Positions 19,464 to 29,366 of a stretch of DNA of 64,000 nt are shown in pieces. Within the stretch, counting starts at the first letter, position 1, and each line of letters begins with the position of its first letter. The notes beneath the pieces are model-generated. The model searched no databases and was not told the origin of the DNA. It saw nothing but the letters and a program-made list of their open reading frames with translations. The DNA is from Actinotalea solisilvae (GTDB lineage Bacteria; Actinomycetota; Actinomycetes; Actinomycetales; Cellulomonadaceae): contig NZ_JADDKQ010000003.1 of assembly GCF_016464425.1 (NCBI RefSeq), forward strand, positions 248,001 through 312,000, written 5' to 3'. The position numbers and the translations under genes were made by a program.

Positions 19464-19670
19464 CCTCCCCGCTCTGTCATCGTGGGCCGGGGCCCTGACC
19501 TGAGAGTTTGACCGGCGTCCCGGAGGGACGCGCAGCGTGCACCGTCGGTGGACCGGCGGCGCCGGTCGCTTTCCAGAGTTGCCTCGCTGGGGCGGTACGT
19601 GGGCCTGAGAGATTCCCGGGGAGGGCCTTGCTCCTTCGGCGTCGCGACCTGGTCGCGAGCTCTCCCGCCG
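19464..19670 (-). promoter_or_regulatory. tandem glycine riboswitch
   Basis: Two glycine aptamers in series precede gcvP on the minus strand. Aptamer 1 (about 19670-19563) shows GCGGGAGAGC, CGCCGAAGGAGCAA, AATCTCTCAGG and AACTCTGGAAAG. Aptamer 2 (about 19562-19464) shows CAAACTCTCAGG and GACAGAGCGGGGAGG. These are the conserved gcvT-element blocks. Glycine binding normally switches the cleavage genes on. The 48 bases to the start codon form the expression platform. The 226 bases upstream, to galE, hold no gene and no feature that I recognise. Confidence 0.95.
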
Positions 19671-19896
19671 CAGCTCGAGCAGCGTGTTCGGTTGTGGTCC
19701 TGCTGCGTCGAGCATAGGTGCTGGGCGGGCGGGGCGGGGGCTGCGTCCACCGGCGGCGGTGGGACCGACGGGATCGCGCCCGCCGGTGCGTGGTGCGGCG
19801 CGCTACGTCGTCACCGACCCCGCCGGTCGGGCGGTGTCACCACGGGACCAAGCCCTGCGGGCACGCGAGGAGGGCGCGTCGCGACGCCCGTCGGCC

Positions 19897-23923: not shown

Positions 23924-24242
23924 CCTCGCCCCGGGCGGGGCCCGGGCACGGGACAGCCCGTGGGTTACCGGTCGGGACGACCGGCGCGCCGTGCTGGACG
24001 ATGCACGGCCCCCACGGGCTGCGGTGACTGCCGGGTCTCGCTGCCGCTCGGCGGCTCGGGACCGGAGGCAATCCGTCCGATGTGCTCGGGCGACTAGCGG
24101 ACAGCCACCTCACGCGTCCGAAGAGAAATCATCTTCTGGACCACCTCCTCTCCCGTGTGCCTCGACGGTACGTCCGGCCCCGCGGGGATGCCAAGCGGTA
24201 TTTCGCGGGCCGGCCGCACCCGGCTCGTGCCGCCCGCGGGCC
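23924..24242. other. intergenic region without a recognisable gene
   Basis: About 320 bases upstream of the promoter for the GGDEF-EAL gene. Codon bias is absent. An A/T-rich patch near 24118-24140 (containing AGAGAAATCATCTTC) stands out in the GC-rich background. I see no RNA gene, and no terminator after 23923 beyond loose GGGCGGGGCCC-type pairing. Confidence 0.5.
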
Positions 24243-24269
24243 TCAACGCCCGGGGGATCGGGCCGATAT
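24243..24269 (+). promoter_or_regulatory. sigma-28-type (FliA/WhiG) promoter for the GGDEF-EAL gene
   Basis: TCAA, 15 bp, GCCGATAT. This is the closest match in the window to the FliA/WhiG consensus TAAA-N15-GCCGATAA. It ends 45 bases before the ATG of the GGDEF-EAL gene. Confidence 0.75.
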
Positions 24270-24314
24270 ACCTGGCGACGTCCGACGTGGCCGGACCGGA
24301 GCAGAGGGGGCACG

Positions 24315-27080
24315 ATGCGCGCCGAGCGGCTGCCTGCTGCCGTGCTGCTCGCCGGCGCGCTCGCGGTGCTCGTCTTCCTCGTCGCCCCCGTGGGCTCGCC
24401 CGCGCAGGTCGCCGCGTTCCTCGCACCCTTCGTCGCGACGACGGCGCTGCTCGGCGCACGCGCGTGGCGCGCGCGCGGACCGCACCGCCGGGCGCTCCAG
24501 CTGCTGTGGTTCGGCTCGGCGGCGTACCTCGTCGGGATGGGGACGTGGTACCTCGCGCCGGTGGTGCTCGGCGTGACGCTCGACTTCCCGACCGTGCTCG
24601 ACGGCGTCTTCTTCGTCTCCTTCGGCGTCTACACCGCGTTCCTCACCGTCGTCCTGCGCCACCGTGCGCCGGACCGGCGGGCCGAGAGCCGGATCGCCGC
24701 CACCGACTCGCTCATCCTCACGTGCGCCGCCTCGGCGGCCGTCTGGGTGCTGCAGATCGAGCCGGGCATCCACACCCAGGCGCCCGTCATGGCGCGCGCC
24801 GTGGCGCTCGTCTACCCGGCGGCGAACGTCGTGATCTTCGCGCTCGCCGCGCGGCTCGCCGTCTCCGGCCGCCTCCTCGCGAGCGCGCCCGGCGCGCTCC
24901 TCCTGGCGTGGATCGGGTTCGAGCTCGCCGGGGACGTCTTCTACGGCACGCAGGTCACCAACGGCACGTTCGAGCACGGCGGGCCCCTGACGGTGACGTG
25001 GCTCGTGTCCTACAGCGCGCTCGCGGCCCTCGCGGTCCACCCGCGCCTGCCCGCGCTGCTGCGCGGCGCCCGCGGGCGCGACGACGTCGTCGTGGGCGAG
25101 CGTGCGGTCTGGGTGAGGTACGTCCGGCACGGGCTGCTGCTCGGGGCGACGCTCGTCCCCCTCGCGCTCATCGCGCTGAGCCCCGACGCCGGCCCGGGGC
25201 TGCTCGTGCTCGCGTGCGTGACGTTCGTGCTGGTCATCGTCCGGGTGCAGCTCCTCTCGGGCGACCTCGGGGACCAGCGCCGGCTCACGGCCGAGCAGCG
25301 GCGCCTGCTCGACCGCGTCGAGGCGCAGAACCTGGAGCTCGCGAGGTACGCCGCGATCGTCGACTCGACCGACGACTCCGTGCTCACGGTGACCCTCGAC
25401 GGCCTCATCGCCACGTGGAACCCGGGCGCCACCCGCCTCTACGGGTACACCGCCGAGGAGGCCGTCGGCGGGCCGTCGAGCGTCCTCGTGCACGACCGCG
25501 ACGCCGAGGCCTTCACGCAGGCCTTCACGCAGACGCTCGCGACGGGCCACGCGCGGATCGAGGCGCTCGCCCTGCGGCGCGACGGCACGACGGTCGAGAT
25601 CCTCTGCACCCTCTCGGTCATCCGCGACGCCGACGGCGAGCCCGCGGGGGTCGTGGGCATCGCGCGCGACATCACGGACCGCAAGGCCGCCGAGGCGCAG
25701 CTGCGCGAGCACGCGCTCGAGATGCGCCGCCAGGCGTTCCAGGACCCCCTCACGGGCCTGGGCAACCGCGCGCTGTTCACCCAGCGCGTCGCCGAGCTCA
25801 CCGACCCGGCGGCGGGCCTCGACCTGCGCGAGATCGCCGTCATCATGCTCGACCTCGACGACTTCAAGGTCGTCAACGACTCCCTCGGCCACGAGGCCGG
25901 CGACGCGCTCCTCACCGCCGCCGCGCGCCGCCTGGGGGACATCGTCGGCGAGCGCGGCACGGTGACCCGGCTCGGCGGCGACGAGTTCACGGTCATCCTG
26001 CCCCGGGGCGGGGAGGCGGCGGGGGTCGCCCTCGGCACCGAGGTGCTCGAGGCGTTCGCGCACGACTTCCAGGTGCTCGGCCTGGCGCTGCGCACCGCGA
26101 CGAGCGTGGGCGTCACCACGGGCGCGGCCGGCGCCGACGCCGGCTCCCTGCTCCGCAGCGCGGACCTCGCCATGTACGCGGCCAAGGCCGCGGGGAAGGG
26201 CACGCTGCGCGTCTACCAGGAGGGCCTGCTGCACCAGGCGCACGAGCGCCTCCAGCTCGAGAACCACCTGCGCCACGCGGTGCAGCGGGGCGAGCTCGCG
26301 CTCGAGTACCAGCCGATCGTCGACGCCGGGACCGGCGCCGTCGTCGGGCTCGAGGCGCTCGCGCGGTGGCACCACCCGCGCTGGGGCGCGGTCTCGCCCG
26401 GCGCGTTCATCCCGGTCGCCGAGGCGAGCGGGACCATCGTGGTCATCGGCGAGTGGGTGCTGCGCACCGCGTGCCGCGAGGCCGCGGCGTTCGCGGTGAC
26501 GCACGGGCGGCCCGTCGGCATCTCGGTCAACGTCTCGGTGCGGCAGCTGCAGGCCGACGGGTTCCGGGCGGTCGTCGAGGACGCCCTCGCCGAGGCCGGC
26601 CTCGCGCCCGAGCTCCTCACGCTCGAGGTGACCGAGAGCCTGTTCATGTCCGACGACCCGCGGTCCGCGGTCGTGCTCGACGAGCTGCACGCCCTCGGCG
26701 TCGAGCTGTCCGTCGACGACTTCGGCACCGGGCACTCCTCCCTCGCGCGCCTGCGTCTCCTGCCCGTGTCCGAGCTCAAGGTCGACCGGTCGTTCGTCAG
26801 CGCGATCGGCGAGGACGGCGAGTGCGGGCCGATCATCACGGCCGTCGTCGCGATGGCCCGGGCGCTCGACCTCTCGGTCGTCGCCGAGGGCGTGGAGACG
26901 GCCGTCCAGCTCACCGCCCTGCGGCGCGCGGGGTGCGACCGCATCCAGGGCTTCCACATCGCGCGGCCCATGCCGGCGGCGGGCCTCGCGACGCTGCCGC
27001 GCACGCTCGGGTCGCCGTCGACGGTGGTGCACGTCCCGACGCCCGCGCGACGCACGGGCACGCGCGTCCCCACGGCCTGA
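24315..27080 (+). CDS. membrane PAS-GGDEF-EAL c-di-GMP turnover protein
   Basis: 921 residues. About eight or nine membrane helices fill the first 320 residues. A PAS domain follows near 344-460 (AAIVDSTDDSVLTVTLDG, ending VVGIARDITDRKAAE). The GGDEF domain has an intact active site (RLGGDEFTVIL, near 555), and the EAL domain has an intact EAL (VVGLEALARWHHP, near 679) and DDFGTGHSSL. Both synthesis and breakdown of c-di-GMP look possible; which dominates cannot be told. Its sigma-28-type promoter places it in the motility regulon, and a c-di-GMP riboswitch lies 2 kb downstream. Confidence 0.95.
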   Translation: MRAERLPAAVLLAGALAVLVFLVAPVGSPAQVAAFLAPFVATTALLGARAWRARGPHRRALQLLWFGSAAYLVGMGTWYLAPVVLGVTLDFPTVLDGVFFVSFGVYTAFLTVVLRHRAPDRRAESRIAATDSLILTCAASAAVWVLQIEPGIHTQAPVMARAVALVYPAANVVIFALAARLAVSGRLLASAPGALLLAWIGFELAGDVFYGTQVTNGTFEHGGPLTVTWLVSYSALAALAVHPRLPALLRGARGRDDVVVGERAVWVRYVRHGLLLGATLVPLALIALSPDAGPGLLVLACVTFVLVIVRVQLLSGDLGDQRRLTAEQRRLLDRVEAQNLELARYAAIVDSTDDSVLTVTLDGLIATWNPGATRLYGYTAEEAVGGPSSVLVHDRDAEAFTQAFTQTLATGHARIEALALRRDGTTVEILCTLSVIRDADGEPAGVVGIARDITDRKAAEAQLREHALEMRRQAFQDPLTGLGNRALFTQRVAELTDPAAGLDLREIAVIMLDLDDFKVVNDSLGHEAGDALLTAAARRLGDIVGERGTVTRLGGDEFTVILPRGGEAAGVALGTEVLEAFAHDFQVLGLALRTATSVGVTTGAAGADAGSLLRSADLAMYAAKAAGKGTLRVYQEGLLHQAHERLQLENHLRHAVQRGELALEYQPIVDAGTGAVVGLEALARWHHPRWGAVSPGAFIPVAEASGTIVVIGEWVLRTACREAAAFAVTHGRPVGISVNVSVRQLQADGFRAVVEDALAEAGLAPELLTLEVTESLFMSDDPRSAVVLDELHALGVELSVDDFGTGHSSLARLRLLPVSELKVDRSFVSAIGEDGECGPIITAVVAMARALDLSVVAEGVETAVQLTALRRAGCDRIQGFHIARPMPAAGLATLPRTLGSPSTVVHVPTPARRTGTRVPTA

Positions 27081-27185: not shown

Positions 27186-28859
27186 ATGAGGACGACACGC
27201 GCCGCCGCGGGCCTCGTCGCCCTCGCCCTCACGCTCCTGGCCTGCACGCCGCTCGAGCCCGACGGCGAGCGCTCGACGAGCGCACCCACGCCGACCCCGA
27301 CGCCCGAGGTCGCCGTCGCCGCCGAGGTGCGCCTGCCCGACGCGGCCACGACGGTGCTCGACAGCCCGGACCCCGTCGCGCGCGCCGTGGCGGTCAGCGA
27401 GGCGCTCTTCGCGAGCGCGCCCGTCGTGGTGCTCGCCCCGGCCGACGACGTCGCCGCGCAGGTCCGCGCCGCCGCGCTGGCCGTCTCGCTCGGCGCGCCG
27501 CTCCTGCTCGCGGGCCCCGACGACACCGTCGGCGGCGAGGTCGAGCGCCTCGACGCCGCGGCCGTCCTCGCGGTGGGGGTGCCGGGCGGGCTCGAGACCG
27601 ACGCGGACGTGGTCGACGCGCCCGAGGACCCCGAGGCGCTCGCCGCGGTCCTGCGCCTCGACCCCCTCGCGGCGCCCGTGACCGCACCCGGGGGCGAGGT
27701 GGCGGCGGTCGCCGCGCTCGACGCGTCGACCCTGCCGGCCGCGCCGAGCGACGCCGACGACGCCGGCGGGGCGACCACAGAGCCCGAGGAGCCCGACGAG
27801 GGCGCGCTGCCGCTCACCTCGCGGCCCGAGCCGCCGTCGGGCGGGCTCGTGCTCACCACGGGGGACGCGGGCGACGTCGCCGCGGTCGCGACCGCACGCG
27901 CGGCCGGCGTGCCGGTGCTCGCCGTGCCCGGGGGCGACCCGCGCGTGGGCAGCGCGACCGTGCAGGCGGTCGCCGCCGCCGCGCCCACCGCCGTCGTCGC
28001 GCTGGGCGCCGCCTTCGGGACCCCTGAGGACCTCGGCTGGCGGGTGACGACGGCCGCGACGGGCGTCGAGCTCCCGGGCGGGGGGCAGACGCTCTTCCCG
28101 GGTCGCCGGCTCGTGGCCCTCTACGGGACGCCGACGTTCCCGGCGCTCGGCGTGCTCGGCGAGACGGACCTCGCCGGGAGCATCGCCAAGGCGCACGCGC
28201 TCGCCGGCTCCTACCAGCCGCTGACGGGCGACCTGGTGGTGCCCGCGTTCGAGATCATCGTGACGATCGCCTCGGCCGGTGCGGGCGCCGACGGGAACTA
28301 CTCGAACGAGCTGCCGGTCGAGTCGTTCGTGCCCTGGGTCGAGGCCGCGCGGGACGCCGGGATCTACGTGGTCCTCGACCTCCAGCCCGGGCGGACCGAC
28401 TTCCTCAGCCAGGCGACGATCTACGAGCCGCTGCTGCGGTACCCGAACGTGGGCCTCGCCCTGGACCCCGAGTGGCGTCTCGCGCCCGACCAGGTGCACC
28501 TGCGCCAGATCGGGTCGGTGCACGCCTCCGAGATCAACGCCGTCTCGACGTGGCTCGCGGACCTCACGCGGACGCACGCCCTGCCGCAGAAGCTCTTCGT
28601 CCTGCACCAGTTCAGCCACCGGATGATCGCGGACCGCGCGCTCGTGGACACCAGCCGACCCGAGCTCGCGACGATGATCCACGTCGACGGCCAGGGCAGC
28701 CAGGGCGCCAAGGCGGGTACGTGGGCCTCGCTGCTGCAGGGCGCGCCGCCGGGCCTCGCGTGGGGCTGGAAGAACTTCATCGACGAGGACGTGCCGATGC
28801 TCACGCCGCCCGAGACCTACGCGGTGCAGCCGGTGCCGGAGCTCGTCACGTACCAGTGA
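27186..28859 (+). CDS. cell-surface lipoprotein with CW-binding-2-like repeats
   Basis: 557 residues. The lipoprotein signal peptide ends LTLLAC at about residue 20, followed by a Thr/Pro linker. Residues about 60-330 alternate strand and helix with short runs such as VVVLAPADD and GAPLLLAGPDD, resembling cell-wall-binding repeat 2 domains. The C-terminal 220 residues (from FPGRRLVALYG) look like a glycoside-hydrolase-type barrel (LPVESFVPWVEAARDAGIYVVLD, VGLALDPEWRL), but no catalytic pair can be named. TAGGGT at 27133 is a likely -10, and GGGGAGGGACC precedes the ATG. Confidence 0.75.
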   Translation: MRTTRAAAGLVALALTLLACTPLEPDGERSTSAPTPTPTPEVAVAAEVRLPDAATTVLDSPDPVARAVAVSEALFASAPVVVLAPADDVAAQVRAAALAVSLGAPLLLAGPDDTVGGEVERLDAAAVLAVGVPGGLETDADVVDAPEDPEALAAVLRLDPLAAPVTAPGGEVAAVAALDASTLPAAPSDADDAGGATTEPEEPDEGALPLTSRPEPPSGGLVLTTGDAGDVAAVATARAAGVPVLAVPGGDPRVGSATVQAVAAAAPTAVVALGAAFGTPEDLGWRVTTAATGVELPGGGQTLFPGRRLVALYGTPTFPALGVLGETDLAGSIAKAHALAGSYQPLTGDLVVPAFEIIVTIASAGAGADGNYSNELPVESFVPWVEAARDAGIYVVLDLQPGRTDFLSQATIYEPLLRYPNVGLALDPEWRLAPDQVHLRQIGSVHASEINAVSTWLADLTRTHALPQKLFVLHQFSHRMIADRALVDTSRPELATMIHVDGQGSQGAKAGTWASLLQGAPPGLAWGWKNFIDEDVPMLTPPETYAVQPVPELVTYQ

Positions 28860-28905: not shown

Positions 28906-29067
28906 TCAGACCGCGCGCAGGAGCTGCGTCGGCAGCACCGCGTTGAAGCACGCGCGCTCGCCGGCCATCGCGGCCCAGCGGGCCAGGACCTGCGGGGGGA
29001 CCGTCATGGTGCTCGCGGAGTCCTCGACGGAGGTCGAGACGGACGCGGAGTTGCCGAGGTCGCTCAT
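28906..29067 (-). CDS. orphan 53-aa protein under a c-di-GMP riboswitch
   Basis: MSDLGNSASVSTSVEDSAST is the start; the rest has a helix-like MTVPPQVLARWAAMAGERAC and ends VLPTQLLRAV. It has one Cys and no signal peptide or membrane helix. I do not recognise the family. It is believed real because nearly every codon ends in G or C and because its ATG lies about 15 bases after a clear c-di-GMP-I aptamer, with AGCAGG as a weak ribosome site. It is convergent with the lipoprotein gene (46-base GC-rich gap). Confidence 0.75.
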   Translation of the reverse strand: MSDLGNSASVSTSVEDSASTMTVPPQVLARWAAMAGERACFNAVLPTQLLRAV

Positions 29068-29081
29068 GGGGGCCTGCTCTC

Positions 29082-29164
29082 GTTCGGTGGCCCGGCTGAC
29101 CTCGAGGGTCCCGTGGCTTTGCGTCCCCGCCTCGCGACGGGTTTGCCTTTTTCGCTGACGTGAC
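29082..29164 (-). promoter_or_regulatory. class I c-di-GMP riboswitch (GEMM-I)
   Basis: Read on the minus strand, the blocks match the GEMM-I aptamer in order. GGCAAACCCGTC is followed by a GCGA tetraloop closing the first stem; next come GGGACGCAAAGCCACGGG, CAGCCGGGCCACCGA and the downstream gene. A -10 box TAGAGT lies at 29171-29166, putting the RNA start just before the aptamer. The only gene downstream is the 53-residue ORF. Whether binding turns it on or off cannot be told: no T-rich terminator is visible between aptamer and start, so translation control is more likely. Confidence 0.95.
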
Positions 29165-29339
29165 GACTCTAACGGGGAGCCTCGCCGTGGCCGAGGGCCT
29201 CTGCGGGCCACCACCCGTTCGGGCGAGCGCTTTCACCCGCTGCGTCCCGCGTGCCGACGTGCGCCGCGGGCCGCTCTCGCCCTCGCGGCGGGACACGCAG
29301 CCCGACACGTCGCGGGCCTCGTCGGCAGTGCGGTTCGCC

Positions 29340-29366
29340 TCACAACCGGCGTGGGGCGGCCGATCC
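29340..29366 (+). promoter_or_regulatory. sigma-28-type promoter for the M15 peptidase gene
   Basis: TCAC, 15 bp, GCCGATCC. The stretch CTCACAACCGGCGT and the following GGGCGGCCGATC are nearly identical to the cheB promoter on the other strand. Confidence 0.8.

Follow-up and report, generated by a model that had tools for sequence, protein, structure and literature searches.

A c-di-GMP-I riboswitch adjoins a conserved gene for an orphan small protein in Actinotalea solisilvae and other Cellulomonadaceae

The minus strand of the analysed window (the whole 64,000-nucleotide stretch of Actinotalea solisilvae DNA) carries a c-di-GMP-I aptamer (29082–29156, −) and, 14 nt past its end, the ATG (29067) of a small gene of 53 codons plus a stop codon that ends at 28906 (28906–29067, −). 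The 3′ neighbour of this open reading frame (ORF) is a convergent gene (27186–28856, +) coding for a 557-aa protein with no Pfam match, and its 5′ neighbour is a divergent VanY-type gene. The ORF thus stands alone on its strand, with no same-strand partner gene in the window. A PAS-GGDEF-EAL gene that a preliminary description of the region had placed nearby is confirmed at 24249–27077 (+). The window also contains Rfam matches to the Ms_IGR-5 small RNA (23948–24158, −; 68.6 bits), which was also found at loci L029, L031, and L032, and to the glycine riboswitch (19583–19677, −; 59.5 bits).

A cmscan search of the whole window identified RF03167 (c-di-GMP-I-GGC, clan CL00126) as the best-scoring Rfam model for the aptamer, with a match at 29156–29082 (−) of 68.4 bits (E 4.7e-14; gathering score, 59) that spans model positions 1–80 of 80. 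The c-di-GMP-I model of the clan (RF01051) matched the same place with 63.5 bits against a cut-off of 35 and has six places in the host genome, the window aptamer among them. Covariance models thus pick up, with two scores above cut-off, what the preliminary description had recognized as GEMM-I blocks in order on the minus strand, and the block order was borne out by the sequence and the model alignment. Furthermore, the window aptamer has G, A, and C at the places that, in our mapping on the alignment, match G20, A47, and C92, the ligand-contact bases reported for Vc2 (PMC4744006). The base after GACGC is A in the window (GACGCAAAGCC), unlike the G of the RF03167 model (GACGCGAA). This G is probably the base that gives the c-di-GMP-I-GGC variant its name; because the window carries A, we treat its aptamer as an ordinary c-di-GMP-I aptamer and not as a member of the variant. 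In its covariance match, block order, ligand-contact bases, and position in the leader of a same-strand gene, it resembles the c-di-GMP-I (GEMM-I) class, and its ligand is most likely c-di-GMP. The targets of this class are, as a rule, recognizable motility, surface, or c-di-GMP genes, whereas the window aptamer precedes a stand-alone gene for an orphan small protein and no recognizable gene of these kinds.

Of the other five aptamers in the host genome, two lie in front of bldC-type genes and one each in front of an EAL-type gene, a 31-codon ORF with another gene after it, and a gene for a secreted-looking protein; all but the bldC copies were judged by eye. The EAL-type gene (L001, G000:C4:18241) is a 284-aa phosphodiesterase-like frame, again by eye, and could be part of a feedback loop. 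The arrangement of an aptamer, a 30–31-codon ORF (MSSTLP...), and another gene about 100 nt on occurs in two genomes (L002 and L129, in G000 and G011).

The composition and variation of the 53-codon ORF fit a coding sequence under partial constraint. Its G+C content at codon positions 1, 2, and 3 is 0.63, 0.57, and 0.98, and the 14-codon core of the 19 Actinotalea genes has 597, 242, and 939 differences at these positions and a pN/pS of 0.50. Calculated over the whole gene, pN/pS rises to 0.91 in Actinotalea, and 16 members of the largest genus give 0.66; therefore, constraint is clear in the C-terminal half only, and the N-terminal half is barely constrained. The structure past its stop codon has a z of −0.74, and we claim no terminator there.

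The aptamer and the small gene are conserved as a pair, and this conservation marks the ORF as real. The window protein alone retrieved a match in 16 of the 19 genomes of the genus, including those of relatives such as Actinotalea ferrariae, Actinotalea sp. K2, Cellulomonas carbonis, and Cellulomonas sp. APG4. All 16 genomes (the window's and 15 others) also have the aptamer, and the start codon lies 11–16 nt past it at the 16 Actinotalea loci. A 16-row profile extended the matches to 27 of the 221 genomes of the family. Diverged members of the small gene were found by reading the loci behind other aptamers, and a 34-row profile, whose rows we picked after this reading, matched 106 of the 221 genomes and 6 of the 25 genera. 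One of these matches (G146) consists of 23 residues inside a long frame and was judged a chance match, which leaves 105 genomes in 5 genera. The RF03167 aptamer is present in 116 of the 221 family genomes, and these include all 105 with the small gene. The remaining 11 genomes have the aptamer and no profile match, and one of them (G094) has a member of the small gene identified by reading (L173). The adjacency comparison took in 68 of the 105 genomes having both elements, and in every one of the 68 the aptamer and the small gene lay side by side, sharing contig and strand. Their spacing was 8–25 nt in 62 of these genomes and between −34 and 53 nt in the other six, the value of −34 being a profile match that runs into the aptamer. 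Similarly, the aptamer adjoined 43 of the 44 loci found through the protein when searched for by pattern, and the 44th by its listed places. The aptamer pattern applied when loci were read missed L070, L086, L101, L108, L109, L112, L116, L121, L124, L126, and L132, covered only L162–L166 of L161–L172, and left out L137, L144, and L151.

Beyond the family, the 34-row profile matched 22 of the 396 genomes of the order, 6 of them outside the family. These six (E 2.9e-5 to 9.5e-4) are partial matches, five inside frames of 288–493 aa and one with an internal stop, and were judged chance matches. A tblastn search of phages and plasmids gave no match at E 1. The preliminary description had proposed a small orphan gene as the target of the riboswitch and had named a covariance match and conservation of the ORF behind the aptamer in related genomes as its tests; the covariance match and the retention of the ORF in that position, in the genus and in the family, support this proposal.

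Members of the small-protein group are 38–66 residues long, and the 34 aligned sequences all have Met1 and a C-terminal PxQ motif with invariant Pro and Gln. AlphaFold2 modelled the window protein as one helix (residues 25–42), with mean pLDDT values of 90 and 85 for residues 21–40 and of 54–73 elsewhere. Neither Pfam nor NCBIfam has a family for the window protein or its 34 relatives. A single NCBIfam match of one member (E 0.069) and five matches to solved structures in a search up to E 10 (best E 3.3) were ignored. A C-terminal Trp is missing in two genomes (G003 and G010) and in genus g18. An Ala-Ala C-terminal end is a signal for Clp proteases, and 30 of 60 distinct sequences end this way, compared with 10 of 442 (2.3%) other genes from the same stretches; a terminal Ala is found in 40 of the 60 versus 13.8% of the 442. 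Because the sequences are related, the Ala-Ala excess does not amount to 30 separate events. Only 3 of the 19 Actinotalea proteins have the Ala-Ala end, and the window protein is without it. The counts made on leaders (109 leaders read, promoter set of 67, folding, and tails) scored a small gene only if [VLIF]PxQ occurred within its last 25 residues, so PxQ is present by construction in those sets; independent support for the motif comes from the 16 sequences that were retrieved by protein similarity. Our preferred reading of the product is a cytoplasmic regulatory microprotein.

The leader of the small gene looks short and conserved. The transcript likely begins at GUC (29157–29159, −), which probably provides the 5′ strand of the outer P1 pairs, and GTCAGCGA was frequent at this place among 109 leaders read. 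Sequence and leader comparison place a sigma-70-like −10 hexamer, TAGAGT, at 29166–29171 (−). In 62 of 67 small-gene leaders, TAnnnT lies 5–8 nt upstream of a GTCAGCG-type start, with rough control rates of 0.000 for the small gene and 0.004 for bldC. Sequence and leader comparison also point to a likely activator site at 29211–29238 (−), where GGGTGAAA ... GGGTGG form a direct repeat with a 22-bp period. A GGGTGAA box is found 89–94 nt upstream of GGCAAACC in 53 of the 67 small-gene leaders, as opposed to 0–2 of 67 when seven shifted control intervals were counted, and within 160 nt in 1 of 29 bldC leaders. The box is repeated 22–23 bp on in 17 of 23 leaders (19 from Actinotalea, 3 from genus g18, and 1 other). 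CGGGTGAAW has a single occurrence in the window, and the GGGTGAA repeat has 10 places in the genome versus 1 for the reversed pattern. GGGTGAA also precedes the aptamers of L001, L002, and L004. The conservation of the box in 53 of 67 leaders suggests that an activator works the small-gene promoter across genera.

In appearance, the small-gene promoter is sigma-70-like rather than sigma-28-like and carries the conserved GGGTGAA box. The preliminary description had placed sigma-28-type promoters on both sides of the locus. The plus strand has CTCACAA-N12-GGCCGATC (29339–29365, +), a sigma-28-like stretch that faces the divergent VanY-type gene. On the riboswitch strand, a search for the sigma-28 motif at spacings of 11–17 nt gave no match, and TAGAGT is found there. 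A companion pattern for the opposite strand used spacings of 8–14 nt, which is too short for the window's own stretch and makes its zero count uninformative.

The position of the aptamer in this leader is consistent with control of translation. GAGAG (29077–29081, −), a putative part of the ribosome-binding stretch, adjoins the 3′ side of P1. Because the transcript appears to start near the aptamer, P1 abuts the ribosome-binding stretch, and the 14 nt between aptamer and start codon are too short for a terminator, control at the level of translation is the most economical interpretation. When leaders were folded with the aptamer enforced, access to the start codon did not shift in a consistent direction: it went up in 13 and down in 19 of 59 small-gene leaders and up in 2 and down in 8 of 24 bldC leaders.

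On balance, we regard it as probable that the locus encodes a monocistronic, translation-gated regulatory microprotein that serves as a general c-di-GMP output of the Cellulomonadaceae. A short transcript would be made from the sigma-70-type promoter, probably aided by an activator that binds the GGGTGAA box, and would have its 5′ end almost exactly at the c-di-GMP-I aptamer. Binding of c-di-GMP would close P1, which borders on the ribosome-binding stretch with its 3′ side, and this closure would alter translation of the sole gene on the transcript. The 53-residue protein, rather than any downstream gene, would be the regulated output. The protein is most likely cytoplasmic and may act through protein–protein contacts, docking on a partner protein with its single helix and C-terminal PxQ tail. 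The Ala-Ala end of many relatives hints at fast proteolysis, in which case the level of the protein would track c-di-GMP quickly.

The genes around the pair bear on another reading, in which the small protein serves motility as a dedicated effector, modulating flagella or chemotaxis. At the Actinotalea loci (about 3 kb each), the convergent gene lies beside the pair in 18 of 19 cases. A VanY-type neighbour, present in 17 of the 19, and a CheX-type gene, also present in 14 of 19, speak for such a role. FlhA, which we found in 114 of the 221 family genomes, also favours it: 79 genomes have the pair and FlhA, 26 the pair without FlhA, 35 FlhA without the pair, and 81 neither, which is a strong family-wide association (odds ratio 7.0, p 1.9e-11) when related genomes are counted as independent. 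However, inside the largest genus the pair and FlhA are not associated (51/23/6/1, p 0.67), and FlhA is absent from 26 of the 105 genomes with the pair, some of them fragmented assemblies and several of them one-contig. Strict dependence of the pair on flagella is lacking. For example, an Actinotalea genome that is 99% complete in 6 contigs (G017) has no FlhA match and keeps the pair after its flagellar genes have gone; the 14 kb around the pair retain the convergent gene and none of the window's VanY, CheX, CheY, CheR, CheB, FlhA, or GGDEF-EAL genes. The shorter locus of G012 resembles it, with the convergent gene beside the pair and no FlhA. A third genome (G004), a fragmented assembly, has no FlhA match, yet it retains the VanY and CheX genes.

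Outside the genus, 0 of 11 loci (about 10.5 kb each) have VanY, Che, FlhA, or convergent neighbours, and one of them has a distant GGDEF-EAL match (33% identity). Two loci of genus g18 have the pair between topoisomerase-type and principal-sigma-type genes, as judged by eye. The vicinity of the pair to chemotaxis genes is thus an Actinotalea trait. The preliminary description had assigned the peptide to the motility programme; with 26 of 105 pair genomes lacking FlhA and no flagellar-side neighbours shared by the 11 outside-genus loci, this assignment is unsupported, and we consider a dedicated motility effector unlikely.

A candidate partner is BldC. Genes of the bldC type lie directly behind c-di-GMP-I aptamers at two host loci (L005, G000:C31:55992, and L006, G000:C12:330647), at L061, L088, and L104, and at others. 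One host copy matches PDB 6ama (8.4e-25), and the other has MerR-type helix-turn-helix matches. In the 28 genomes where bldC was read behind an aptamer, the small gene is present in 28 of 28 (by reading in G094). The two proteins also share a short likeness, VPPQVLARWA in the peptide and VDPKTVTRWA in BldC, whose ungapped score of 30.9 exceeds 200 of 200 column shuffles (13.9 ± 2.8); 7 of 2127 windows taken from other proteins scored as high or higher. This comparison was chosen after the likeness had been noticed in the sequences, which counts against it. Furthermore, the C-terminal [VLI]PxQ that the small protein and BldC have in common is found in 21 of 23 distinct BldC proteins and in 2 of 442 other genes. 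The interface residues of BldC include Phe21, Val23, and Trp31 (PMC5859096), and by our placing Val23 and Trp31 appear to fall in the VDPKTVTRWA stretch.

These features would suit a microprotein that acts on BldC, its VPPQVLARWA helix mimicking VDPKTVTRWA and capping BldC oligomers on DNA, although we hold this to be distinctly improbable. The hhalign comparison was not significant (probability 1.6%, P 0.03), so homology to BldC was rejected and the likeness kept as a lead. The Trp of the likened stretch is missing in G003, G010, and genus g18. A winged helix-turn-helix, as in BldC (6ama, 6amk), is absent from the small protein; with no Pfam match in the window protein or its 34 relatives, it does not qualify as a member of the BldC family. 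The link between the microprotein and BldC is only a lead.

The short ORF could also be a leader peptide serving a downstream gene, or the RNA itself could be the functional product. This reading gains some footing from other families of the order, where short ORFs follow the aptamer, and from the freely varying N-terminal half of the small protein. At three loci of family f6 (L131, L133, and L138) and two of family f9 (L141 and L156), the aptamer is followed by an ORF of 20–36 codons that overlaps or abuts the next gene, which is response-regulator-like or of another type, and the arrangement looks like a translational-coupling leader. These ORFs resemble the window ORF in their shortness and in their similar distance behind the aptamer, but they overlap or closely precede the next gene, whereas the window ORF has no same-strand follower and its next gene is convergent. 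The neighbours differ between genera while the pair stays, and in-frame length changes, invariant residues, and the third-position excess in the core favour a protein. In some relatives, a same-strand gene follows, by estimate, about 125–130 nt past the small gene (L097 and L105) or about 380 nt past it (L120), and an operon is therefore possible at these loci. Overall, we give the leader-peptide or functional-RNA reading little chance. Finally, a chance ORF behind a genuine aptamer, as its small size and lack of a known family might suggest, deserves next to no credence for a frame that 16 of 19 genomes of the genus and 106 of 221 of the family keep at a fixed place behind the aptamer.

The bldC genes behind the same type of aptamer have implications of their own. 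Targeted searches of titles and abstracts in the openly accessible literature showed no report of the aptamer–microprotein pair or of bldC under a riboswitch. The most far-reaching possibility, which we regard as a long shot, is a twin circuit in the Cellulomonadaceae in which one aptamer gates BldC and another gates a microprotein that imitates the interface helix and tail of BldC and limits its oligomers on DNA. If true, it would contain a microprotein that inhibits a transcription factor under riboswitch control, the first that we know of. c-di-GMP is reported to bind BldD (PMC4151990), and if the aptamer controls bldC, the signal would reach the Bld regulators by a second path.

Returning to the favoured reading of a stand-alone microprotein as a c-di-GMP output, the pair is kept in about 100 related soil bacteria, with or without flagella, and the tiny protein therefore looks like a real answer to c-di-GMP. 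Because the aptamer already gives the input, one small deletion could show the use that is made of the signal. A conserved orphan microprotein as the target of a riboswitch points at an unknown step in the c-di-GMP signalling of Actinobacteria.
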